Assembly (NCBI GenBank): GCA_015233485.1
Contig: JADFXO010000003.1
Location: forward strand, 1 to 33,024
DNA from: Nitrospirota bacterium
Lineage (GTDB): Bacteria > Nitrospirota > Thermodesulfovibrionia > Thermodesulfovibrionales > Magnetobacteriaceae
Length of the DNA: 33,024 bases
Reading direction: 5' to 3'
The first letter of the stretch is position 1; each line of letters opens with the position of its first letter. Positions 2 to 23,218 of the stretch are shown in pieces. Made by a program: the position numbers and the translations under genes. The notes beneath the pieces are model-generated. The model did not search any database and was not told where the DNA came from. It saw nothing but the letters and a program-made list of their open reading frames with translations.

Positions 2-694
2 GAGCTGCCCGATGGAAGCATATTGCATATAGAGATCCAAAGTGCATCGGACGGTACGATGTTGAAGCGGATGTATCTCTATTCGGCGCTAATATTTTGC
101 CAGTATGGGAGGCTGCCGAGGCAGATTGTCTTGTATGTAGGAAACAAGCCTCACAGCATGGAAAATCAAATAGGGCAGTATTCCTATGAGATAATAGATA
201 TTCGTGATATAAACTGTTCGGAATTATTACGGAGCAACAAACCTGAGGACGCGGTATTGGCGCTGCTATGCAACTCTGACAATATGGATGTAACAATATC
301 CATGATTTTAGAGAAGTTATCGGTGTTGCCGGAAAAAACCATGAATGATTACATCGTAAAATTGCTGAATCTGGCAGATTTACGGAAGATGTCTGAGAAA
401 GTAAGGAAGGAGGTAGAAAAGATGCCTATAACGATTGATGCAAGAGAGACCTGGCTTTATAAGGAAGGCTTAAGTGATGGTGAACTTAAAGGGTTAAGTG
501 AGGGAAAACTTGAGGGGCTGTTTGAGGGTATCGAATTAGGGCTTGAACTCAAATATGGCACTGCCGGGCTTGAATTGATGACCAGGGCCAGGGCTATAAC
601 TACCATTGATAAATTGGAGGAATTTAAGAATCTCATAAAGAAGGCCGCGTCAGTTGATGAGTTGAAAGGGTTCTTAGACAATAGCGTTGTGTGA
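2..694 (+). CDS. PD-(D/E)XK nuclease-family (Rpn/YhgA-like transposase-associated) protein, 5' end truncated by the window
   Basis: The provided ORF begins at a TTG (23), but the frame is open to position 2 (ELPDGSILHIEIQS...). HIEIQ resembles the E-x-Q nuclease core. The C-terminus has G-rich repeats (EGLSDGELKGLSEGKLEGL) typical of Rpn-type proteins. Confidence 0.7.
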   Translation, partial: ELPDGSILHIEIQSASDGTMLKRMYLYSALIFCQYGRLPRQIVLYVGNKPHSMENQIGQYSYEIIDIRDINCSELLRSNKPEDAVLALLCNSDNMDVTISMILEKLSVLPEKTMNDYIVKLLNLADLRKMSEKVRKEVEKMPITIDARETWLYKEGLSDGELKGLSEGKLEGLFEGIELGLELKYGTAGLELMTRARAITTIDKLEEFKNLIKKAASVDELKGFLDNSVV

Positions 695-736
695 AGCCGA
701 CACGACAGCACAGATTAAAAAGGTGGCCGCTACCGC

Positions 737-802
737 GATGCCGGTCATCTGCGCAGGGGATGCCGGTCATCTGCGCAGGGGATGCCGCTCACCTGCGAAC
801 GC
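737..802. repeat. Short tandem repeat, 22-bp unit GATGCCGGTCATCTGCGCAGGG (2 perfect copies plus 1 degenerate copy)
   Basis: Copies read directly at 737-758 and 759-780, with a degenerate third (GATGCCGCTCACCTGCGAACGC) at 781-802. Confidence 0.85.
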
Positions 803-5090: not shown

Positions 5091-5735
5091 ATGGCTGATT
5101 ATAAGAGACTGATAAGCGGCAACAAGCGGGAGCTGCTGAACTTTAAGGGTAATCTGTTGAGCACTGCTGCCGGTAAGACCGTGAAGTCAATCATGGTAAC
5201 GAGCGCGATGAATGGGGAGGGCAAGACAACTGCGGCTTTGAGTTTGGCGTATACGCTGGCAGTCAACGCAAAGGACAATGTTTATTTAGCGGACGGTTCA
5301 TGGAATTCTCCCAAGATGGATAAGATATTTAATATGGGAGAAGTGCCGGGCATCTCGGATTATTTTCGTGGTGAGATAGACCTGGATACGATTGTGCGGC
5401 AGACTCAGACTATAAATCTTTCCGTAATTCCATTTGGCAAGAAGACCAACAATTCTATGGAGATATTGAAGCCGGCGCTGTTAAAAGAGAAGATTGATGA
5501 GTTGAGAAGCAGGTGCGATTATGTTATTTTCGATTCCGCCTCCATAATGGGCTCAGCAGACATCGCTGTGTTGTCCACTTTCTTTGATGGAGTGATCCTG
5601 GTAGTAGAGTGCGAAAAGACAAAATGGCAGGTAGTGGATTTGGCTAAAAGCAAATTGGAATCCGCTGGTGCAAACATCATCGGAGCCGTATTAAATAAAA
5701 GAAAATTTTACATTCCGAGGTGGTTATATGGATAG
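5091..5735 (+). CDS. CpsD/CapB-like BY-kinase-type P-loop ATPase, stand-alone
   Basis: SIMVTSAMNGEGKTTAALSLA Walker A; A'-like VYLADGSWNSP; Walker B-like CDYVIFDSAS. GAGGAGG RBS upstream. Next to OPX and PCP genes. Confidence 0.82.
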   Translation: MADYKRLISGNKRELLNFKGNLLSTAAGKTVKSIMVTSAMNGEGKTTAALSLAYTLAVNAKDNVYLADGSWNSPKMDKIFNMGEVPGISDYFRGEIDLDTIVRQTQTINLSVIPFGKKTNNSMEILKPALLKEKIDELRSRCDYVIFDSASIMGSADIAVLSTFFDGVILVVECEKTKWQVVDLAKSKLESAGANIIGAVLNKRKFYIPRWLYG

Positions 5736-6915
5736 ACTTAGTTCAGCTCCAAAACGGTTTATAAACAGACGGGTTATTAGCAGTCTGTTTATTTGCATTT
5801 CTTTGTTGACGCTGGCAGTTGGCTGCTCAACGGTAGAGCCAAAAGGTGCTCAGGAAGGCAGCGTCGCTTTTACAAACTCAGGCTACAACAATGCAGCTAG
5901 CGACAACTTTACGGGTTTTAACACCTCGTATGACGTCTTCCCGGAATACCGCATAATGCCTGGAGATATACTGGAGGTCTTCTATAAGGTAGAGACCGGG
6001 AAGGTACAGGATTTCACGATTGAGGTTGATTACACTGTGACGGTTAAGTTCATCAATGCCCCTGAGATGAATGAAACACAGACAGTACGCCCGGACGGCA
6101 CCATTACGCTTCCATATATTGGTAATCTTTATGTCCTGGGGAAAACGCCGGATGCTCTTACCGCGGAGCTTAAAAAGTTCTACGCTAAGATACTGAAATA
6201 CCCTGATTTATATGTCTTAGTGCCGGATTTCAGGTCAACCCTGAAAGAATTCAAGGCGGATTTGCACACTGCCCCGCGCGGACTGAGCCGGCTTGTAACG
6301 GTCAGGCCGGATGGAATTGTTACGTTTCCCATTGTTGGCGATATGTTTGCGGCCAAAAGGTCGCTTAAAGAACTCAACGAAACACTCAACGGCTTCTACG
6401 AAAAGGTAATTCCCGGACTTCACGTAAATCTTTTCCTGGAAAAACAGTCGGGCTTTCTTGTCTACGTATTTGGCGAGGTGAAAAAACCTGGCGCGTTTCC
6501 TATTATAAAACCGATAAGCGTGTTAGAGGCGCTTGCCCTCTCGGAGAGCTTCCTGCCTTCGGCTAAAACGGCTAGTATCGTTGTGTTGAGAAAGACAAAA
6601 GAAAAGGTCATTGCTACGAAAGTTGCCCTTTCTGATTTGATAATCACAGCAGACAGGCAGGATATCATGATGCTTAATCCTGATGACATCGTGTATGTCC
6701 CAAGAAGGATTCTGTCCAACATGGCCGATGTAGCGAGAGACATATCTGATATAACGTTCTTCAGGGGCTGGGCGTTTGGCGGCAACTTGAGCTGGAATAT
6801 GTATAACGCGCCGACATCATCCGGGAGTAGTACTCCAGCAAATACGACCACTCAATCAACTTCAACGACGAACGCGATTACTGGCCAAACAACTACGACA
6901 ACTACGACTCGATAA
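5728..6915 (+). CDS. Outer-membrane polysaccharide export lipoprotein (Wza-like OPX, Poly_export/SLBB)
   Basis: Lipobox-like LTLAVGCS; YRIMPGDILEVFY; VRPDGTITLPYIGNL; GEVKKPGAFPI SLBB motif. Thr/Ser-rich C-terminal tail. Confidence 0.9.
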   Translation: MDRLSSAPKRFINRRVISSLFICISLLTLAVGCSTVEPKGAQEGSVAFTNSGYNNAASDNFTGFNTSYDVFPEYRIMPGDILEVFYKVETGKVQDFTIEVDYTVTVKFINAPEMNETQTVRPDGTITLPYIGNLYVLGKTPDALTAELKKFYAKILKYPDLYVLVPDFRSTLKEFKADLHTAPRGLSRLVTVRPDGIVTFPIVGDMFAAKRSLKELNETLNGFYEKVIPGLHVNLFLEKQSGFLVYVFGEVKKPGAFPIIKPISVLEALALSESFLPSAKTASIVVLRKTKEKVIATKVALSDLIITADRQDIMMLNPDDIVYVPRRILSNMADVARDISDITFFRGWAFGGNLSWNMYNAPTSSGSSTPANTTTQSTSTTNAITGQTTTTTTTR

Positions 6916-6928
6916 GGAGGATATAAAG

Positions 6929-9259
6929 ATGAGAGCTGAAAGTATGGTAGAAGATTACAAAAGAGCACTGCTGACTACGTTTTTTGTCCAGAAGCGGATT
7001 ATATACCTTGCGACTGCCGTGATATTTCTCTCCGCGGTACTGGTGTCTTTTCTATGGCCGAAGACCTATGCGGCCTATGGCTCGATACTGGTAAAGGGAA
7101 AGAAATCGGACAAAAGCCCCAATGCCATAGAAAAAGAGGAAATACGCCCAAATCCAGTTTCAAAAGAGGACCTTAACTCGGAATCTGAGATACTCGTCTC
7201 ACCTGACGTTATACGGAGCACTATCGTGCAGATGAGAGATAAGAATCAATATAAGCAGTCTCGCTCCATCGTATCCACTGTGATTGCCCTGCTTAAAAGC
7301 GCCAAGGGTACGGGGAAAGAAAAGGCTATACAGGAAAGCGAGATATATAAGATCAAAAAAAGTATAACTACAGAGATCATCCCAAGCACCAATGTTATTA
7401 AAATAACATTGAATGATAACGACCCCCAATACGCGGTTTTGTTATTGGATACACTTATGTCGCAGTTTTTAGTATACCGCTCGCAGATTTACAATCCAGA
7501 GGCAGCCAGGACGTTTTTCATTGATCAGGTAACCGATTCAAGGAAAAGTATAGAAGGCAAGGAAGACCAGCTTCTGGACTTGTCCAAAGAAGGCATCGGT
7601 GTAATGCCTGTTAAAGAAATAGAGAACAATCTTTCCCTAAAAAAGGACCTTGAGCAGGACCTCCACTATCTTAAACAGAATGCGATGGAGAAAAAACGCA
7701 TGATCGAATACATAGATAATGCGCTGAAGAGCAAGGAAATAAATTACTTTTCATTCATCGAAGGTAACGAGGCCATTACGAATTTAAGCAAGAACCTTCA
7801 GGAGCTTGTTGCCGATGGCGGGCCTATTGTAACCAGATACAACAAGGACACTGAAAAGGTCAACCTTTTTAACGAGCAGGTCAACAACATGTACAACTCG
7901 TTAAAAAGAGAAGTACAAGGTTATGTAAACAATATAAAGAGACAGCTTGAAACAATTAACGATAAGATTGATTCCGTCGAGAGGCGTATTGATAAGATTC
8001 AGGCTGAGGACGTCAAGCTTGAAAAGACATTAATAGACCAAGAACGCCTAAAGAGGGATATCGATATATACAAAGTATCCTATGATATCTTCTCTAAACG
8101 CAAGGAGGAATCCTCAGTATCGTCCTCCGCCGCGGCGGGCAACTTCCTGATAAGCATCATGGGTAAGGCCTTTCCATCAAGCGGCCCGATATTCCCCATC
8201 CCCGGCCTGTTAATACCCATAGGGCTTATAGCGGGCGCTATGACGGGCATGAGCCTCGGATTCCTGAAAGAGTATATGGATCAAACATTCAAAAGTCCGG
8301 AAGATGTTGTTAAATACGCGCAGATTCCAGTGCTTATATTCATACCATTCATGCCGGACATTGCCGCCGTGCAGACAGGCAAGGGCAAGACTGCATCGGC
8401 GCTCTCTAATAAAGCCGGTTTCCCTGATGCCCCATTCGATAAAACGGTATCTGATATGTTTACAGCACTAAAATCAAACATCAGGGTATTTACCTCATGG
8501 GTTTCCTCGCCAAAGACGGTTTATTTACGCCGGATAGTCATGGTTTGTTTGATTGTGATTGTTGTAGGATGCCAGGTGGCAAGTTTGTATGGTTCAGAGA
8601 TTAAACCTCTGGCCGTTTCTGTTAACACAAAGATTAATAATCTTATGACCAGCGCTAACACAGAGATTAATAATCTTATGACTATCGCTAACACAGAGAT
8701 TAATAATCTGGTGGCCTCCACCAGCGCAAAGGTTAGTGAGCTGGTGGTGTCAGCAATCAATCGCCTGCCTATTAACATATCAGTATCAATAGTGCCCTCA
8801 AGTTCTTCGCCGGCAGCCCAAAATGTCAACGCCGCACAGGCACAGGTTAATCAACCTGCAGCCGCGGCCGCAATTCCCGCACCCCAGCCGGCAGCATCTG
8901 CCCCTGTAACTGCCATGCCGCAGGAAGCCGCTAACCCGGCCACAGCCACTAAGACATCCGCTGCGGCCTCAAGCCAATTACCGGAAGCCGAAAAGGTCAG
9001 CGCCGCACAGACGCCGGGCAGCCCCGCAGTCGTCTCTACCGAGGTACTTCCCTCGGTAGAGGTTAAGTTTGATGTTGCCAATTTAAGAGCCATGCCCACA
9101 CCGCGCGCTAATGTAATAGCCTACCCTAAAAAAGGTGATAAAATGGCCGTCCTTCCTGGTTACAGGAAGGGTTGGCTCAGGGTAAAAACCACTGACGGCA
9201 CAGAAGGCTGGATTTCAGAGTTGGCCGTAGCCGCCAAGACAGAGACGGCAGGGTTGTAA
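6929..9259 (+). CDS. Wzz/GumC/Wzc-like polysaccharide co-polymerase with C-terminal hendecad repeats and bacterial SH3 domain
   Basis: N-terminal TM (IIYLATAVIFLSAVLVSFLW), long coiled-coil region, second TM with PIPGLLIPIGLIAGAMTGMSLGFLKEYMD, third TM IVMVCLIVIVVGCQVASLYG, C-terminal VANLRAMPTPRANVIAYPKKGDKMAVLPGYRKGWLRVKTTDGTEGWISE (SH3-like). RBS AAGGAGG. Confidence 0.85.
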   Translation: MRAESMVEDYKRALLTTFFVQKRIIYLATAVIFLSAVLVSFLWPKTYAAYGSILVKGKKSDKSPNAIEKEEIRPNPVSKEDLNSESEILVSPDVIRSTIVQMRDKNQYKQSRSIVSTVIALLKSAKGTGKEKAIQESEIYKIKKSITTEIIPSTNVIKITLNDNDPQYAVLLLDTLMSQFLVYRSQIYNPEAARTFFIDQVTDSRKSIEGKEDQLLDLSKEGIGVMPVKEIENNLSLKKDLEQDLHYLKQNAMEKKRMIEYIDNALKSKEINYFSFIEGNEAITNLSKNLQELVADGGPIVTRYNKDTEKVNLFNEQVNNMYNSLKREVQGYVNNIKRQLETINDKIDSVERRIDKIQAEDVKLEKTLIDQERLKRDIDIYKVSYDIFSKRKEESSVSSSAAAGNFLISIMGKAFPSSGPIFPIPGLLIPIGLIAGAMTGMSLGFLKEYMDQTFKSPEDVVKYAQIPVLIFIPFMPDIAAVQTGKGKTASALSNKAGFPDAPFDKTVSDMFTALKSNIRVFTSWVSSPKTVYLRRIVMVCLIVIVVGCQVASLYGSEIKPLAVSVNTKINNLMTSANTEINNLMTIANTEINNLVASTSAKVSELVVSAINRLPINISVSIVPSSSSPAAQNVNAAQAQVNQPAAAAAIPAPQPAASAPVTAMPQEAANPATATKTSAAASSQLPEAEKVSAAQTPGSPAVVSTEVLPSVEVKFDVANLRAMPTPRANVIAYPKKGDKMAVLPGYRKGWLRVKTTDGTEGWISELAVAAKTETAGL
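8588..8752 (+). repeat. 33-bp in-frame tandem repeat encoding 11-residue (hendecad) repeats
   Basis: 8621-8653 VNTKINNLMTS; 8654-8686 ANTEINNLMTI; 8687-8719 ANTEINNLVAS; 8720-8752 TSAKVSELVVS. A degenerate copy YGSEIKPLAVS precedes at 8588-8620. Confidence 0.88.
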
Positions 9260-9265
9260 GTCTAA

Positions 9266-10978
9266 ATGTTAAAAACTGTGCAGGACAAGAGTTTCAGAAA
9301 GAATATATATTTGGCGATAGCCGTGCTTATCGTGTTCTCGCCAAATATATATTACAGTATAATCAGCCAGGAGATAGTCTCTCCATCGAGAAAGATTGCG
9401 TTTATTGTCTTTTCCATAGGGCTGCACTTAATACCGGTTGTGTTCTTTGCGAAAAGAATAAAATGGTTTCTCGCGGTGTTCATTCCCCTGGCGTTTCTCG
9501 CGCCATTAGATATGTTTTTTATCTACCTGTATAAATACCCGCCGACAAACAGCGCGCTGCGTGATGTGCTTGAGACAAACACAAGCGAAGCGGCGGAGTT
9601 TATTCAGGGTTTTCGTGTACCGGCGGCGCTTACGGTGATGGCAGCCGTAGTCTTTGCCGCCGTCTTTATCTATTGCCTGAAGAGAATGAATAGCGCTGTC
9701 AACACAAAGGCGGCGGCCGGCCTGTCCCTCGTATTTGTAGCCGTTACTCTAACCACTTTTTTTACTCAACAGCACGGCGATGAAAATAAATATGTTTCCA
9801 AAACAGAGGTCTTTGAGACACGTATCGGAAAGGCATATCCAATTGGCGTCATAACCCATTTGACGAGGTTTTTTATCGAGCGGAGGCAGCTTGCCAGACA
9901 TCGAACGGCCGTCGGGAACTTTCGTTATAATCTTAAAAGGCCGCAGGATATGTCAGAAAAGGAGATATTTATCCTGATTATAGGAGAGGCCTCAAGGGCG
10001 GGTAATTATTCAATAAACGGATATTACAGAACTACTACGCCGAATATGAGCGCGACAAGTAATCTCATAAGTTTTCCAAACGTATGCGCACCGGCTACCG
10101 TTACCAGGATGTCGCTTCCTCTGATGTTAACCGGTACTAGTCCCGCGGATTACTCAAGCGCGTATGGAAAGCCCGGAGTCATAACCTTCTTTAAAAAAGC
10201 CGGCTTTGAGACGCACTGGATTTCCAATCAGATAGAAATGGGCATTTATGATAAGTCCGTAAAAAGCGTTTTTACAGAGGAGGCCGGCGACGTAACCGTC
10301 CTGAACAGCGCCAAAGGAGACGTCAGGGATAACAATATAAAATACGACGGGGAGATTATCCCGCCGCTTAAGAAATTTATCTCTGAAAGCAAGTCAAATA
10401 AATTATTTTTTGTCCTTCACACTATCGGCAACCATTACAGGTATGATTACAGATACCCCAATGAATTCGATGTCTTTAAGCCGTCGATGAAGGGAAGGGA
10501 CGACATCAGGATTAACGACGCCTTTGTCAAGGATTTAAAGATAAACAGTTACGATAATTCCGTCCTATATGTTGACAAGTTTATCTCTGATGTTATCAAA
10601 TATATTTCATCTTTAGATGTACCGGCGGCCATTGTTTTTCAGGCTGACCACGGGGAGGATATTTTTGACGACGAGAGAAATATGTTTGGCCATGGAAATA
10701 AGGTAGTAACCAAATATGTCGCCCATATCCCATTTATTGTGTGGTTTTCTGATGCATACGTGAAGAGCCACCCCAATAAACCCGCCGCTTTATTGTCAAA
10801 TAAAGACGCGAAGTTAGGCGGCGGCTTTCTCTTTCATTCCCTGCTGGACATGGCCGATATTTCATATGAAGACAGCGATTTGACAAAAAGTGTGTTTAGT
10901 GATAAACTATCACCGAACGCAAGAGATATTATAAATCCATCATACAAGGTAGTCGATTGCGATAAGCTGCTGAATTGA
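9266..10978 (+). CDS. Phosphoethanolamine transferase-like, alkaline-phosphatase/sulfatase superfamily (EptA/CptA/OpgE-like)
   Basis: N-terminal multi-TM region; FILIIGEASRAGNYSINGYYRTTTPN; VCAPATVTRMSLPLMLTG (catalytic Thr region); FFVLHTIGNHYRYDYRYP; QADHGEDIFD. Confidence 0.88.
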   Translation: MLKTVQDKSFRKNIYLAIAVLIVFSPNIYYSIISQEIVSPSRKIAFIVFSIGLHLIPVVFFAKRIKWFLAVFIPLAFLAPLDMFFIYLYKYPPTNSALRDVLETNTSEAAEFIQGFRVPAALTVMAAVVFAAVFIYCLKRMNSAVNTKAAAGLSLVFVAVTLTTFFTQQHGDENKYVSKTEVFETRIGKAYPIGVITHLTRFFIERRQLARHRTAVGNFRYNLKRPQDMSEKEIFILIIGEASRAGNYSINGYYRTTTPNMSATSNLISFPNVCAPATVTRMSLPLMLTGTSPADYSSAYGKPGVITFFKKAGFETHWISNQIEMGIYDKSVKSVFTEEAGDVTVLNSAKGDVRDNNIKYDGEIIPPLKKFISESKSNKLFFVLHTIGNHYRYDYRYPNEFDVFKPSMKGRDDIRINDAFVKDLKINSYDNSVLYVDKFISDVIKYISSLDVPAAIVFQADHGEDIFDDERNMFGHGNKVVTKYVAHIPFIVWFSDAYVKSHPNKPAALLSNKDAKLGGGFLFHSLLDMADISYEDSDLTKSVFSDKLSPNARDIINPSYKVVDCDKLLN

Positions 10979-16910: not shown

Positions 16911-18212
16911 TTAATCTTTTTTCCCGGCCTTACGCACATCTTTAAAAACAATAGCCTTACGTGCTCCCCCGTCGTACAATCGTTTATTAATAGCCTCCGG
17001 GCTTTCGATTTCTAGCTCCGGGGTAACACGCGCCTTGGCGCGCAAATTCTCTATGATGCCGTCACGAAATGCCTTGTCTGTCCTCAATGAGCCGACTCTA
17101 AGGATAACCCTGTCCGACTGGTTTTCCCCCGCCACGGCCTCTATCTGGTAATTCACTACATCTTTCAGCTTACAAATAGCGTTTTCTATCGTCTTAGGAT
17201 ACAAGGTGACGCCCTTTATTTTAAGTCTTTGTTTTTTCCTGCCGATAATCGGCCCTATACGAAGGGAGTTTCGGCCACACTTGCAACCCTCTGTTATCTT
17301 AAACGTTATATCTCCCGTCTTGTACCTTATTAACGGCATTCCCTCGATTTGCAGGGTTGTCAGGACAAGCTCTCCTGTCTCGCCGTCGTTAAGCGGCACG
17401 CCCGCCTCATCAACCACCTCGGCAATCACAAGGTCTGGGTGGCTGTGCAGGCCTTCTTTTTGGCCGCATTCGCAAAACGACACCTGTCCCTCGGTTATGC
17501 CGTATGTGGAGTAACATATGTCGCCGAAGGCCTCCTCCACAAGTTCACCAAGGGCATTTGAGCGAAGCGACGTATCCCTTATGCTTTCCCCAATGAGCAC
17601 GGCCTTTTTAATGTTCAGCTCCTTTGGATTAATCTTAAGCTCGCGGGCGGCGCGCGCCATGTGAAGCATAAAAGACGGCACTGCCACTATTGCCGATGGC
17701 CTTAGTTTCTCTATGAGGTCGAATTGTCTGATAGTGTTCTGTGGGCCTACCCTGGCAACCGCCGCCCCAAGCCTTATCAGCCCCCTATAGTAGGCGGCGC
17801 CGGCTATGAACAGGTTGTCTCCGGTTACGGCAATGTGAAACAGGTCTCCTTCTTTTGCTCCGGTGTATGTGAAACTTCTCTGTTCGTTGTAGGCAAGCCT
17901 CTCGATGTCGCCTTCGGTCATTGCAATGAACTGCGGCTCGCCCGTTGTGCCTGTGGTTGAGACAATCTCTCTGATAGAAATTCTTTTAGTTGCCAAAAAA
18001 TCCCAGTTATGCCGCTGAAGGTCTTCTCTGGTAGTAAAGGGCAGCTCCCCGACTCCTTTTATCTTGTTAGTGGCGATATTATTTTTTCTGAATACATCTT
18101 TATAATATAGGCTCGTGCTCCCTACACGCCCTATCAACTCTGCAAGGAGCTTGTCCTGAACACTTCTGATATCAGCGGGGGATGAGAAATCTATCGAATC
18201 AAAGACTCTCAT
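16911..18212 (-). CDS. Phenylacetate-CoA ligase-like (PaaK family) adenylate-forming enzyme
   Basis: STTGTTGEPQFIAMTEGDIERL; YGITEGQVSFCECGQKEGLH; GMPLIRYKTGDIT; KIKGVTLYPKTIENAI. Confidence 0.87.
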   Translation of the reverse strand: MRVFDSIDFSSPADIRSVQDKLLAELIGRVGSTSLYYKDVFRKNNIATNKIKGVGELPFTTREDLQRHNWDFLATKRISIREIVSTTGTTGEPQFIAMTEGDIERLAYNEQRSFTYTGAKEGDLFHIAVTGDNLFIAGAAYYRGLIRLGAAVARVGPQNTIRQFDLIEKLRPSAIVAVPSFMLHMARAARELKINPKELNIKKAVLIGESIRDTSLRSNALGELVEEAFGDICYSTYGITEGQVSFCECGQKEGLHSHPDLVIAEVVDEAGVPLNDGETGELVLTTLQIEGMPLIRYKTGDITFKITEGCKCGRNSLRIGPIIGRKKQRLKIKGVTLYPKTIENAICKLKDVVNYQIEAVAGENQSDRVILRVGSLRTDKAFRDGIIENLRAKARVTPELEIESPEAINKRLYDGGARKAIVFKDVRKAGKKD

Positions 18213-18784
18213 TTAGTCAGACGGCAATACGCCTTCGCCCCTCTGTCCTTTGCAGCCTGTGCGTCCTCAAGTACAAAGAACTCCGCCTCATAGACATTCG
18301 TTCCTCTGCTGAGTACGCCCCCAGACACTGCGGTCTTCGTATATCCGTTTCTTATACACATCGCAGCGTATTCTATCACATCTTCACATGAATAGTTAAC
18401 AGGCGTCAACACGCACTCACCGCGAATATCAAACACAATAGTGATCTGAGCGGAGAAGGCGTTTGGTGATGTAAAGGGAAACATCAGCGGACTTGCGCCG
18501 TATATGCCGTTACCAAGCACACCCATGAAGAAATCGTCCTTTACGTCCTCGACCGAATCGTCAATCCCCATGAAGAGGCCAATATCGTCTCTGCCTGATG
18601 GAAAGGCGATCCCCGCGTCATCAAGGGCAAAGCTCACCGCAGTTACAGCGCTTTTTTCTATGTCATGGATAAACCTGGTCTTGCCGGTGCGTTGCCGGAT
18701 TGAATTCAGCGTCTCTTCAATAATGGTGTGGTCATCTGAATAAGAGTATCCCATTCCGGTTACAACTATTTCCATAGTTTTCAT
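18209..18784 (-). CDS. Ketosynthase N-terminal-half-like protein (degenerate, 191 aa)
   Basis: MEIVVTGMGYSYSD start; FPFTSPNAFSAQITIVFDIRGECVLTPVNYSCEDVIEYAAMCIRNGYTKTAVSGG aligns with the KS active-site region without the Cys. ATGA overlaps on both sides. Confidence 0.72.
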   Translation of the reverse strand: MKTMEIVVTGMGYSYSDDHTIIEETLNSIRQRTGKTRFIHDIEKSAVTAVSFALDDAGIAFPSGRDDIGLFMGIDDSVEDVKDDFFMGVLGNGIYGASPLMFPFTSPNAFSAQITIVFDIRGECVLTPVNYSCEDVIEYAAMCIRNGYTKTAVSGGVLSRGTNVYEAEFFVLEDAQAAKDRGAKAYCRLTK

Positions 18785-19956
18785 ATTTTGGTCGGCCTTC
18801 CGAAAATCACGGCGGCATTTTGCCCGCCAAACCCTGCCGAAAGGGACATTGCCGCCCCCACGGGCGTTGCCTTTGCTGTGTTTGGCACATAGTTGAGGTC
18901 ACATTGCGGGTCAGGGTAGCGATAGTTTATCGTCGGGGGGATTACCCCCGTTTTTATCGCCATCAGGGCACACAGGGACTCAATCACCCCTGAGGCGCCG
19001 AAGGCGTGCCCAAGCATTGATTTCGTCGAGGACACATATGTTGTATATGCCGCCTCTCCAAGTGCCAATTTTATCGCCTTAGTCTCCATCAAATCATTAT
19101 AAACGGTTGCCGTGCCGTGGGCATTAATATAATTTATATCATATTGGCGCAGGCCGCTTTGTGATAAGGCAGCGGTAATCGCGCTGGCAAGCCCCCGGCC
19201 TTCCCTGTGCGGCGCGGTCAGATGTGAGGCATCCGCCCGTGAGGCGTAACCTAGTACGCGCCCATAGCACTTCGCGCCACGCGCAAGGGCATGTCTTTCT
19301 GCTTCGAGGACTAAAAAGGCCGCCCCCTCGCCAAGCGCCAGTCCGCTTCTTTTCTTGTCAAACGGCCGCACCTTGTCCTCTGTGAGAGCCTGAAGGAGAT
19401 TAAACCCCGCAAGGGCGAAATCACTGAGCACGTCAACGCCGCCCGCTATAACCACCTCAGCCTCTCCAGTTTTTATTGTCCTTGCCGCTATCCCGACTGC
19501 GTCAGTGCCGGAGGCGCAGGCCGTTGATATGGCACGTAGACGGCCTCCAATTGCAAAGCGCTGTCCCAGACACCTTACGGGATATGACAGAGAGGCCTCA
19601 ACAGTCCTGTTTTGAATATTGCCGTCTATGAGCTGCCTTTCACGGCTGAGGACATTTCCCAGAATGCTGCCAATAACCATGTCAGCTCCCTGAAGCTCCT
19701 CAGCGCTCAATCTGGAATCCTCGATAGCCATTTTCAGCGCCGCCCCGGCTATATAAAAAAACTTATCCTCAGGCCTTAGAGCATTCCCTATTTCAATAGA
19801 AGCTGTAAGCCATCCTTTCTTTGTATTAAGAAGCGGGGGCGGCTGTAGTTTTATAGAGTCTTCACCGCTGGTGAGGGCGTCCCAAAAGGCATCTATAGTA
19901 TCAAACGGCCGCAGCGGCGCAACCAGTCCCATTGCCGTTACCCATACATCCGTCAC
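18781..19956 (-). CDS. Beta-ketoacyl-ACP synthase (FabF-like), catalytic residues present
   Basis: ISTACASGTDAVGIAA (Cys); NYINAHGTATVYNDLMETKAI (His); SSTKSMLGHAFGASGVIES (Lys/His). Confidence 0.92.
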   Translation of the reverse strand: MTDVWVTAMGLVAPLRPFDTIDAFWDALTSGEDSIKLQPPPLLNTKKGWLTASIEIGNALRPEDKFFYIAGAALKMAIEDSRLSAEELQGADMVIGSILGNVLSRERQLIDGNIQNRTVEASLSYPVRCLGQRFAIGGRLRAISTACASGTDAVGIAARTIKTGEAEVVIAGGVDVLSDFALAGFNLLQALTEDKVRPFDKKRSGLALGEGAAFLVLEAERHALARGAKCYGRVLGYASRADASHLTAPHREGRGLASAITAALSQSGLRQYDINYINAHGTATVYNDLMETKAIKLALGEAAYTTYVSSTKSMLGHAFGASGVIESLCALMAIKTGVIPPTINYRYPDPQCDLNYVPNTAKATPVGAAMSLSAGFGGQNAAVIFGRPTKI

Positions 19957-20954
19957 GATTTAGCCGCCATCCACAGACACTCATTAAGCGTTAGCGACTT
20001 TATGTCAAATCCAATCTCCCCCAAAAGCGCTCTCGTCTGCTTCGCTGAATAAAACCCCTGCCAGCCCTCGCACACGCTCTCGGCAAAGTCATGGCACAAG
20101 GCCGCCCTTTGATATAACTTATCTGAGCCGCACTGTGAGTCAGGGTAGCCGCGCGTTATTATGCCCATCAGGCCGTGGCGTGTTAAGACCCTATAGATGT
20201 CCTCATAGACAAATCTCTTATGACCTCCGGCAATATATGGATCGGCGCAGGAAAATACGGCAGCGTCAAAATAGCCGTCTTCAAAGGGCAGCGGGCTGCC
20301 AAACCCGCCCCATTTATCCGAATGTATCCACTGTACGGCGTCAGGTCTCAACAGTTTAGCCCTTGCAGCCTCGTAAAAAGCGCCGTTATAATCAACGGCG
20401 GTAATCTTCACGTCCTCTGAGTATCTTTGTAAGTGGCATATATCATAACCCGGCCCATAGCATAGCACAAGCACCCTGTCTAAGGCACGGCAGCCCTCAT
20501 ATAATTTCTTGGCCAAAACGCCGCGCGCGTACTCAAATTCGGGATTGCCGAGAAATTCGTCCCATGTATCCACACACCCGCCGTTAAAATCATAAAGGGG
20601 CTTGCCCCCTCTGAGGTATTCTCCTGCGTAGTCTATACACCGGCTAAAAAAATTGTATTCGCCCTCAAAGCTGTCCAGTGAGCCGTGTGCCGGTTCGCGA
20701 TTAACGCCGTCTGCGGTATATCGGCCCTGCCGCCGGTATCCGCACTCTGTAAGAAAATCCAGCAAAACAGCAATCATCCTTCGCCTGTTGCCATCTTTCA
20801 AGGTATAGCCATGAGAGTTTTCCAGCAATTCCACGATCCTTTCAAACTCATCACATTCATGCTGCCCGGACAATACCCCGGCAATCCCCTCATCAAATAT
20901 GAAGTCCAAAAAACGGCGATTTAACGCCGCATGAAATATTGCCAATGATTCCAT
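19953..20954 (-). CDS. Putative class I SAM-dependent methyltransferase with N-terminal extension
   Basis: RVLVLCYGPGYDICHLQRY (motif I-like), VKITAVDYNGAFYEAARAKL, FEDGYFDAAVFSCADPYI, RVLTRHGLMGIITRG. GTGA overlap with the next gene. Confidence 0.72.
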   Translation of the reverse strand: MESLAIFHAALNRRFLDFIFDEGIAGVLSGQHECDEFERIVELLENSHGYTLKDGNRRRMIAVLLDFLTECGYRRQGRYTADGVNREPAHGSLDSFEGEYNFFSRCIDYAGEYLRGGKPLYDFNGGCVDTWDEFLGNPEFEYARGVLAKKLYEGCRALDRVLVLCYGPGYDICHLQRYSEDVKITAVDYNGAFYEAARAKLLRPDAVQWIHSDKWGGFGSPLPFEDGYFDAAVFSCADPYIAGGHKRFVYEDIYRVLTRHGLMGIITRGYPDSQCGSDKLYQRAALCHDFAESVCEGWQGFYSAKQTRALLGEIGFDIKSLTLNECLWMAAKS

Positions 20955-20969
20955 CAACAGTTTGTCTTA

Positions 20970-21989
20970 TTAAGGTTTACTCACCCGCGATAAAATAACG
21001 GCTGAGGCGTCTCCATCTTCCTCTGTCGCGTATATAATAACATGATTGATTTCAGAATGTTTGGCGTATTTTTTTAGTTCGGTGGCAAATAATGGATTTA
21101 TGGGACAACCACCGCCGCAGGCCATGGCCGATAAGATTATATTCCACATAGTGGAGACACAAAAGGCATAACCGAGACAATCAAAAAAACTCAGCGTGGG
21201 GACATCTATCTGTACAGTTTTGTAATCTGAAACGGCCACGCCTATGTCTCCTACTGTAAGGCCAGCCATCGAAAGCGCGCCGTCTATTGCCCTTTGAAGC
21301 GCCTGCTGAGGTCTGTCCGGAATTGTATAAGCGGCATACCCGGATATCGTACACAACGTAACCGGATTAATTGGCCTTAGTTCGTCCGCCGGTTCTATTA
21401 AGAGAGCACCGGCGCCCTCCGAAAGCGCCCCTGCCGCGGAAGGGTTGAATCTTGAGTAACAAAACGAAGATAATTCGTTACGCTCCTCGGCACAAACCAC
21501 GATGGCATGTCTCGCCCTCCCGGTCTCTATAAGAGTTGCGGCCAGCATGAGCGCCTTAACGGCAACTGATGGGCCGCCTATAATGGAATGCACCGGGCCG
21601 CGAATATTAAAGACGATTGAGGCATTTCCAGCCGGGGCGTTTAGCACGGACTCAGAAAAAAGGGCGGGGCTTGCCGTCTCTTTTGCCTCGGCCACGATAG
21701 TGTGATGGAAGCCGGCGCTGAAATTAAGCGCGCCGTTTGTGACTCCGGCAATTAAGGCATAATCACCAAAGCCGCCGGCCCCGCGGTCTCGTAACGCCTC
21801 ATCTACGGCAGTAACGGCATATGAGGTGATAGTGGCGCATCGGCGGAGTTTTCTTAACACGGCCAAGCCGGTCTCGCTGATATGGCCGGCAGCAACGCGG
21901 CGACCAAGGGCGGTTGCCTCAGCCAATGCCCCTGCGCCAACGCCGGCAGGGCTTATGGCGCCAACTCCGGTAACCGCCAGCCTTATCAT
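20970..21989 (-). CDS. Degenerate ketosynthase-like protein (chain-length-factor/KS-beta-like)
   Basis: MIRLAVTGVGAISPAGVG; SVLNAPAGNASIVFNIRGPVHSIIGGPSVAVKALMLAATLIETGRA; GALSEGAGALLIE. No active-site Cys and no HGT motif. Confidence 0.82.
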   Translation of the reverse strand: MIRLAVTGVGAISPAGVGAGALAEATALGRRVAAGHISETGLAVLRKLRRCATITSYAVTAVDEALRDRGAGGFGDYALIAGVTNGALNFSAGFHHTIVAEAKETASPALFSESVLNAPAGNASIVFNIRGPVHSIIGGPSVAVKALMLAATLIETGRARHAIVVCAEERNELSSFCYSRFNPSAAGALSEGAGALLIEPADELRPINPVTLCTISGYAAYTIPDRPQQALQRAIDGALSMAGLTVGDIGVAVSDYKTVQIDVPTLSFFDCLGYAFCVSTMWNIILSAMACGGGCPINPLFATELKKYAKHSEINHVIIYATEEDGDASAVILSRVSKP

Positions 21990-23218
21990 CTGTACTCCCC
22001 GAAAATCAACGTGGCATTTGAGCCGCCAAACCCAAACGAATTGGATAGAACTGCCCTGATTTCCGCCGCCCTGCCAACCGTAACTATGCTTAGATTACAG
22101 TCGGGGTCAGGCGTTAGATAGTTTATATTCGCTGGAAGATAATTGCCGATGAGTGCCGCAACACTGACGACGGCCTCAACTGCCCCGGCTGCCCCCAGCA
22201 GATGCCCTATCATGGGTTTTATTGAGCTGACAGGAATATCCACATCGCCTTTGTTACCAGAGGAAAATACCTTTGTTATGGCGCGGGCCTCCATTAAATC
22301 GTTGTATTTTGTTGCCGTACCGTGGGCGTTGATATAGCCTATATCAGGGAATCCGGCCTCTTTCAACGCCATCGCCATCGCGTTTGCAGCGCCTTCGCCG
22401 CCGGGGTTGGGGCTTGTCATGTGGTAGGCGTCCGAGGCAACCCCGTAGCCGGTTATCTCGCAATACACCCTCGCATTGCGCCTTATGGCATGGCCTAGCT
22501 CCTCAATGGCCAATATGCCGGCGCCTTCACCAAGGATAAGCCCTGTCCTGTTTTTGTCAAATGGCCGGCAAATTTCCGGCGTAACGGCCATGAGCGAATT
22601 AAAACCCGCGAATGTGAACTCGCTCATCGTGTCATAACCTCCGGCAATGGCCACATCGTACCGTCCCGATGAGACAAGGCCAAAGGCATGGCCGATAGCA
22701 TTGGCCGATGATGCACAGGCATCAGAAAATACGGCGTAATCCCCTGTCAGCCCAAACTCTCTGAAGAGGTTTAGCGCCTGATAATGGGCAAGATAGTCGA
22801 GGGTCTTCGAAATCCTGGCCCTTGATATGCCTTTTTCTATTACCTCGCGATGAAAGGCCGCGCCGCTTAACATCCCGCCCAAAGTCGTTCCCAGCGACAA
22901 GAAGACATCAATGCCCGGCTTGATGAGGCCCGCAAGGCCAAGCGCCTCCCGCACCGCGTAAATAAGGAGATGCGACGCCCTGTCAAGTCTGCCGGCCCTC
23001 AAACGTGAAACCGGCGCGTGGGTATCACCTCTTATCTCTGCGCCAAGCCTGCCCCTGAATGGACTGGCATCAAATGCGGTTATCTCCCCCACAGAGGACT
23101 CTCCGGCCTTGATTTTCTCCCAATTAGCCTCAACTCCCGCGCCATGAGAGGTTATTATCCCCATGCCGGTCACCACTGCTCGTTTTCTCAATATTCCCCC
23201 GCAGGGACCCCCTCTCAC
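21986..23218 (-). CDS. Beta-ketoacyl-ACP synthase (FabF-like), catalytic residues present
   Basis: AVVTGMGIITSHGAG; FSDACASSANAIGHA; YINAHGTATKYNDLMEARAI; SSIKPMIGHLLGAAGAVEAV. The true start may be a TTG at 23191 (GGGGGA upstream). Confidence 0.92.
   Translation of the reverse strand: MRGGPCGGILRKRAVVTGMGIITSHGAGVEANWEKIKAGESSVGEITAFDASPFRGRLGAEIRGDTHAPVSRLRAGRLDRASHLLIYAVREALGLAGLIKPGIDVFLSLGTTLGGMLSGAAFHREVIEKGISRARISKTLDYLAHYQALNLFREFGLTGDYAVFSDACASSANAIGHAFGLVSSGRYDVAIAGGYDTMSEFTFAGFNSLMAVTPEICRPFDKNRTGLILGEGAGILAIEELGHAIRRNARVYCEITGYGVASDAYHMTSPNPGGEGAANAMAMALKEAGFPDIGYINAHGTATKYNDLMEARAITKVFSSGNKGDVDIPVSSIKPMIGHLLGAAGAVEAVVSVAALIGNYLPANINYLTPDPDCNLSIVTVGRAAEIRAVLSNSFGFGGSNATLIFGEYR

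Follow-up and report, generated by a model that had tools for sequence, protein, structure and literature searches.

A polysaccharide co-polymerase with a third transmembrane helix and an SH3 domain: a putative cell wall anchor in magnetotactic Nitrospirota

The open reading frame at 6929–9259 of the window (the whole 33,024-nucleotide stretch of DNA analysed here, a single contig of the 4.2-Mb genome of the magnetotactic Nitrospirota bacterium Candidatus Magnetominusculus) encodes a polysaccharide co-polymerase (PCP) with an unusual C-terminal tail. The layout proposed in an initial sequence-only reading, in which a Wzz/GNVR core is followed by a third transmembrane helix (TM3), hendecad repeats, an alanine/proline-rich linker and an SH3 domain, is borne out by Pfam searches, hydropathy and a repeat in the DNA (Table 1). 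Its recurrence in three same-genus genomes and one from another genus, together with purifying selection on the SH3 domain, argues that this is not a chance arrangement. We think it rather probable that, by way of TM3, a spacer and a putative peptidoglycan-binding SH3 domain, the co-polymerase ring is anchored to the sacculus.

Architecture and fold of the co-polymerase

Standard PCP-2b proteins have two TM helices and a cytoplasmic C-terminus; with a third hydrophobic helix at residues 536–554, the window protein is a variant of this class rather than a standard member. The SH3_3 match scores 31.4 bits against a Pfam gathering threshold of 27, with the SH3_4 model likewise above cut-off, whilst the GNVR segment is sub-threshold in Pfam yet aligns across the co-polymerase family. 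No Pfam match to a P-loop was found in the chain. The four hendecads read VNTKINNLMTS, ANTEINNLMTI, ANTEINNLVAS and TSAKVSELVVS, and the DNA of this region contains a 33-bp tandem repeat (2.6 copies, 94%; 8623–8709).

Table 1 Features of the co-polymerase, its operon partners and the SPOR-bearing kinase genes of relatives
Feature	Locus	Residues	Position	Strand	Basis
Co-polymerase, PCP-2b-like, with third TM and SH3 (776 aa)	window		6929..9259	+	Pfam, hydropathy, Foldseek
Wzz domain	window	13–100	6965..7228	+	Pfam E 4e-8, above cut-off
TM1	window	24–42	6998–7054	+	hydropathy 2.56
GNVR segment	window	373–448	8045..8272	+	Pfam E 0.0013, below cut-off
TM2	window	421–439	8189–8245	+	hydropathy 1.87
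Predicted cytoplasmic loop	window	440–535	8246..8533	+	between TM2 and TM3
Third TM helix (TM3)	window	536–554	8534..8590	+	hydropathy 2.58
Four 11-residue (hendecad) repeats	window	565–608	8621..8752	+	
Ala/Pro-rich linker	window	609–714	8753..9070	+	
SH3_3 domain	window	715–763	9071..9217	+	Pfam E 2e-7, above cut-off
BY-kinase-like partner (214 aa)	window		5091..5735	+	TIGR01007 above cut-off
OPX outer-membrane polysaccharide export protein	window		5728..6915	+	
SPOR-TM-kinase gene	L066		3357–6968		in kinase-OPX-PCP operon
SPOR-TM-kinase gene	L103		5943–8003		in kinase-OPX-PCP operon
SPOR-TM-kinase gene	L104		5149–6657		in kinase-OPX-PCP operon
SPOR-TM-kinase gene	L064		5507–6925		in kinase-OPX-PCP operon
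SPOR-TM-kinase gene	L063		5310–6893		in kinase-OPX-PCP operon

An AF2 model built on 21 family members (mean pLDDT 66) has a well-modelled core and a long helix at residues 555–610; the pLDDT of TM3 is about 44–49 and residues 609–723 are of low confidence. A model of the SH3 domain alone, from four sequences, was uninformative (pLDDT 46). Foldseek searches with the core model returned Wza–Wzc and Wzc as top matches (E 5e-12 to 1e-9; 9r68, 9r64 and 7nhr best), and in a sequence search of the PDB the only co-polymerase chains were those of Pseudomonas PslE (9v75, 9v6l; E 8e-5). PslE is like the window protein over residues 12–475, but the alignment stops at the core and no counterpart to the tail was matched. 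Wzc (PCP-2a) has the core fold in common with the window protein, which differs in having no fused kinase and in its extra TM3 and predicted periplasmic SH3 domain. The best NCBIfam relatives are the XrtA/PEP-CTERM chain-length determinant (TIGR03007, 84 bits against a curated cut-off of 278.85) and EpsF (TIGR03017, 65 against 423), both scores falling far short. The operon neighbours also match XrtA-type models but, unlike in XrtA/PEP-CTERM systems, no exosortase was seen among the window genes scanned.

It had been suggested that the tail replaces the kinase module of Wzc-type proteins, and that residues 503–535 resemble the helix preceding the BY-kinase domain, which would make them a relic of it. 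Neither idea is supported. Most relatives end no more than about 40 residues past TM2 (L055, L059–L064, L066, L068, L070) and most have a separate kinase-like gene, the usual PCP-2b condition, so that the tail is an addition and not a substitute for a kinase. Against a nine-sequence profile of the BY-kinase helix, with shuffles of the loop as control, residues 503–535 score 9.0, compared with 34–51 for genuine members and 9.8 for one divergent paralogue; this is not clearly above chance, as 4.3% of the shuffles match it and one periplasmic stretch elsewhere in the protein reaches 13.6. The segment also drifts and is shortened or altered in two relatives (G006 and G017), and the relic was rejected. 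Within the loop, residues 441–475 are conserved whilst 476–535 drift, and by analogy with CapA/CapB and EpsV/EcpK (PMC12004946) the former are likely to be a docking stretch for the partner.

A separate kinase-like partner in the operon

The gene lies in a Wzx/Wzy-type exopolysaccharide locus, with the order BY-kinase-like protein, OPX, PCP, phosphoethanolamine-transferase-like protein, sugar transferase, Wzy-like ligase and two glycosyltransferases. The phosphoethanolamine-transferase-like gene (9266–10978; CptA/EptA type) adjoins the PCP gene, as it does in G003, G004, G005 and G006; none was found within the M. xianensis stretch examined. Further along the window, on the minus strand (16911–23218), ketoacyl synthases, a methyltransferase and an AMP-binding enzyme make up a polyketide- or aryl-polyene-like cluster.

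The proposal that the product of 5091–5735 supplies kinase activity in trans holds in part: a BY-kinase-like partner is indeed encoded separately, but its catalytic motifs depart from the canonical ones and it may not be a working kinase. Walker A is intact (SAMNGEGKTT), with G44, K45 and T46 invariant in the alignment, whereas Walker A' reads ADGSW in place of DxDxR and Walker B reads FDSAS in place of DxxP. The second Walker A' aspartate is missing in all 13 aligned partners and the Walker B proline in nearly all. The C-terminus has two tyrosines in its last 18 residues, the tyrosine tail being reduced to (Y/F)YIPxxLY, and YIPxxLY is widely conserved among partners. Given these departures from the catalytic motifs, the protein may be a scaffold or pseudokinase, or a weakly active kinase. 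Pseudokinase partners of co-polymerases, with a proposed scaffold role, have been described (PMC12004946).

The PCP-2b pairs CapA/CapB (Staphylococcus aureus), EpsV/EcpK and HfsA/HfsB likewise combine a two-TM Wzz/GNVR core lacking a kinase domain with a separate kinase-like protein and a conserved cytoplasmic stretch after TM2, and in the pseudokinase pairs EpsV/EcpK and HfsA/HfsB the kinase motifs of the partner deviate, as they do here (PMC12004946). Unlike EcpK, however, the window partner retains Walker A, and only in the window protein is the C-terminus, with repeat, linker and SH3 domain, predicted to go back to the periplasm via a third TM helix. Some relatives have other arrangements: at L055 there is an OPX–PCP pair with no BY-kinase-like gene found within the stretch examined, and the kinase-like partner at L059 (4876–6882; G008) lacks a TM helix and is extended at its N-terminus by 450 residues of repeated unknown domains.

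Predicted wall-binding modules on the co-polymerase or its partner

Three surveys all show the core family to be rare. In the window's phylum it was found at E 1e-30 in 25 genomes out of 396 (about 15 close members); at E 1e-60 the phylum of the Desulfovibrio MAG G405 has it in 12 genomes out of 395, and the phylum of G408 in 1 out of 241. TM3 is followed by an SH3 domain in the window, G003, G005, G007 and G017, by no SH3 domain in the same-genus G006 (locus L054), where it has been lost, and by no recognised domain in L058 and L067. In two lineages a SPOR domain follows TM3, above cut-off in both (L069, E 4e-7; L071, E 2e-6), and in L125, from the phylum of G405, a LysM-like domain does so, below cut-off (E 0.003). 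The number of repeats also varies. On a tree of the core (29 rows; deep forks weakly supported, L071 on a long branch) the PCP tail appears or disappears at least five times, and the SH3 proteins group with L054 in a single supported clade. A co-polymerase can do without the arm, since the SH3 domain is lost in L054, L058 and L067 have no domain and many relatives end after TM2. The tails of two PCP genes broken by runs of unknown bases (L038 8856–10474, G004; L057 3242–4500, G002) cannot be safely judged. At L127 (3821–9457) an ORF that by eye is L,D-transpeptidase-like accompanies an OPX and a PCP with TM3 and a LysM-like domain, and the Walker A lysine of the kinase-like protein is replaced (GEGATT).

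In Magnetocorallium and the Desulfovibrionia it is the kinase gene that carries SPOR: a hydrophobic segment or export signal at the N-terminus is followed by SPOR, a TM helix and the BY-kinase-like domain. This receptor-like layout, with one to three SPOR domains on the predicted periplasmic side, is present within kinase–OPX–PCP operons in L066 (Magnetocorallium, with three SPOR domains) and, in the class of G405, in L063, L064, L103, L104, L106, L107 and L109; it is weaker in L110 and L111. Pfam recognises SPOR in L066 (E 8e-15), L103 (E 9e-12), L104 (E 3e-9) and L064 (E 2e-4) and marginally in L063, and a profile made from the Pfam-supported domains matches L106 and L109, more weakly L107, and L110 and L111 marginally. 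Lysine and arginine counts on the two sides of the TM helix (15 versus 56) place the kinase side inside. The PCPs found in these loci end after TM2, and in none of the loci examined does a PCP tail occur together with a SPOR-kinase; strict mutual exclusion is suggestive but is confounded by phylogeny, hence we do not claim it. These domain assignments do indicate that a predicted wall-binding module can be carried by the co-polymerase or by its kinase-like partner.

A periplasmic anchor and its alternatives

That the C-terminus lies in the periplasm and tethers the complex to the cell wall, as first proposed, is a prediction supported by three alternating TM helices and by the replacement of SH3 at the equivalent place by SPOR, and probably by LysM, in relatives. 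Since these exchanged domains have peptidoglycan binding as their common trait, a periplasmic wall anchor suits the exchange better than other common functions would and is the best reading. Lysine and arginine counts around TM3 in 11 relatives that possess it (39 N-terminal to the helix, 25 C-terminal to it) show a modest bias.

A periplasmic SH3 domain might instead have OPX, the polysaccharide being exported or a peptidoglycan hydrolase as its ligand, and so help to assemble or gate the conduit. Bacterial SH3 domains have varied ligands, OPX and PCP adjoin and must meet in the periplasm, and OPX co-varies within the same operon. SPOR and LysM-like domains at the equivalent place, or SPOR on the partner, are however unrelated folds that have peptidoglycan, and not OPX, in common, and we regard a different ligand as unlikely.

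Selection along the protein was estimated as dN/dS (Nei–Gojobori) between the window protein and three same-genus relatives. Values are 0.08–0.15 for the core, 0.5–0.8 for the loop, 0.75–0.89 for TM3, 0.34–0.45 for the linker and 0.23–0.31 for the SH3 domain, which is under purifying selection; TM3 is retained although its sequence drifts. This pattern, with the head under constraint and the tether free to drift, fits an anchor for which neither length nor precise sequence matters much. Were the tail an addition peculiar to one lineage, close to neutral, tolerated and without an important role, the near-neutral drift of loop, TM3 and repeats, the variable repeat number and the loss of SH3 in G006 would be accounted for, but not the constraint on the SH3 domain nor the recurrence of wall-binding modules across several lineages, on one partner or the other, and we consider this quite improbable. 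It is most improbable that TM3 fails to insert and that a cytoplasmic linker and SH3 domain regulate the BY-kinase-like partner: model confidence for TM3 is low and the positive-inside signal weak, but the hydropathy of TM3 matches that of TM1 and exceeds that of TM2, the helix persists despite drift, and SPOR, found at the equivalent position, would have no cytoplasmic target.

Under the wall-anchor reading, a ring of Wzz/GNVR subunits would lie in the inner membrane beneath the OPX channel, and on its cytoplasmic side the BY-kinase-like protein encoded separately at 5091–5735 would serve it. TM3 would return the C-terminus to the periplasm, where the helical repeat and flexible linker, about 160 residues, would hold an SH3 domain that, judging solely from its substitution by SPOR and LysM-like domains, would bind peptidoglycan. 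To our knowledge, SH3_3 domains of Gram-negative bacteria are mostly without a proven ligand. With several such arms, each ring could presumably be held on the sacculus at the site of export. SPOR recognises denuded peptidoglycan glycans (PMC6895207), and such glycans occur where the wall opens; in relatives with SPOR, the module could therefore direct the exporter to sites of wall remodelling.

Assembly factors bound to the wall have a precedent in type II secretion: ExeA, which interacts with peptidoglycan, is required for secretin assembly (PMC4098917), and in the case of GspB/OutB, OutB holds the secretin to both the inner membrane and the wall (PMC9239104). These proteins have no sequence relation to the window protein, however, and in the present case it is the co-polymerase that would be attached to the wall.

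A search of open-access literature turned up no account of a co-polymerase that bears SH3, SPOR or another peptidoglycan-binding part, nor of SPOR with a BY-kinase. On the scope of this open-access search, both architectures (the co-polymerase with TM3 and SH3, SPOR or a LysM-like domain, and the SPOR-TM-kinase) are only provisionally new. The literature examined does not account for the passage of a Wza/Wzc-type conduit across the peptidoglycan layer or for its staying fixed there, and the repeated occurrence of wall-binding modules on either half suggests wall anchoring or sensing as a recurring, testable requirement. More tentatively, split co-polymerase/BY-kinase machines might have a wall-sensing input, a peptidoglycan-binding module on the co-polymerase (SH3, SPOR or LysM-like after TM3) or, in receptor-like form, on a SPOR-TM-(pseudo)kinase partner, through which the state of the wall, beyond tyrosine phosphorylation, would place or switch ring assembly and EPS export. 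The SPOR-TM-kinase form provides an experimental handle in the Desulfovibrionia, of which some are culturable, whilst the window's organism is not known to be.

In line with the wall-anchor reading, a gene at L049 (1797–3176; G017) encodes a protein of ExeA-like layout, with a cytoplasmic AAA ATPase, a TM helix and a C-terminal SH3_3 domain that is 38% identical to that of the window protein, and may represent a donor or a parallel case.
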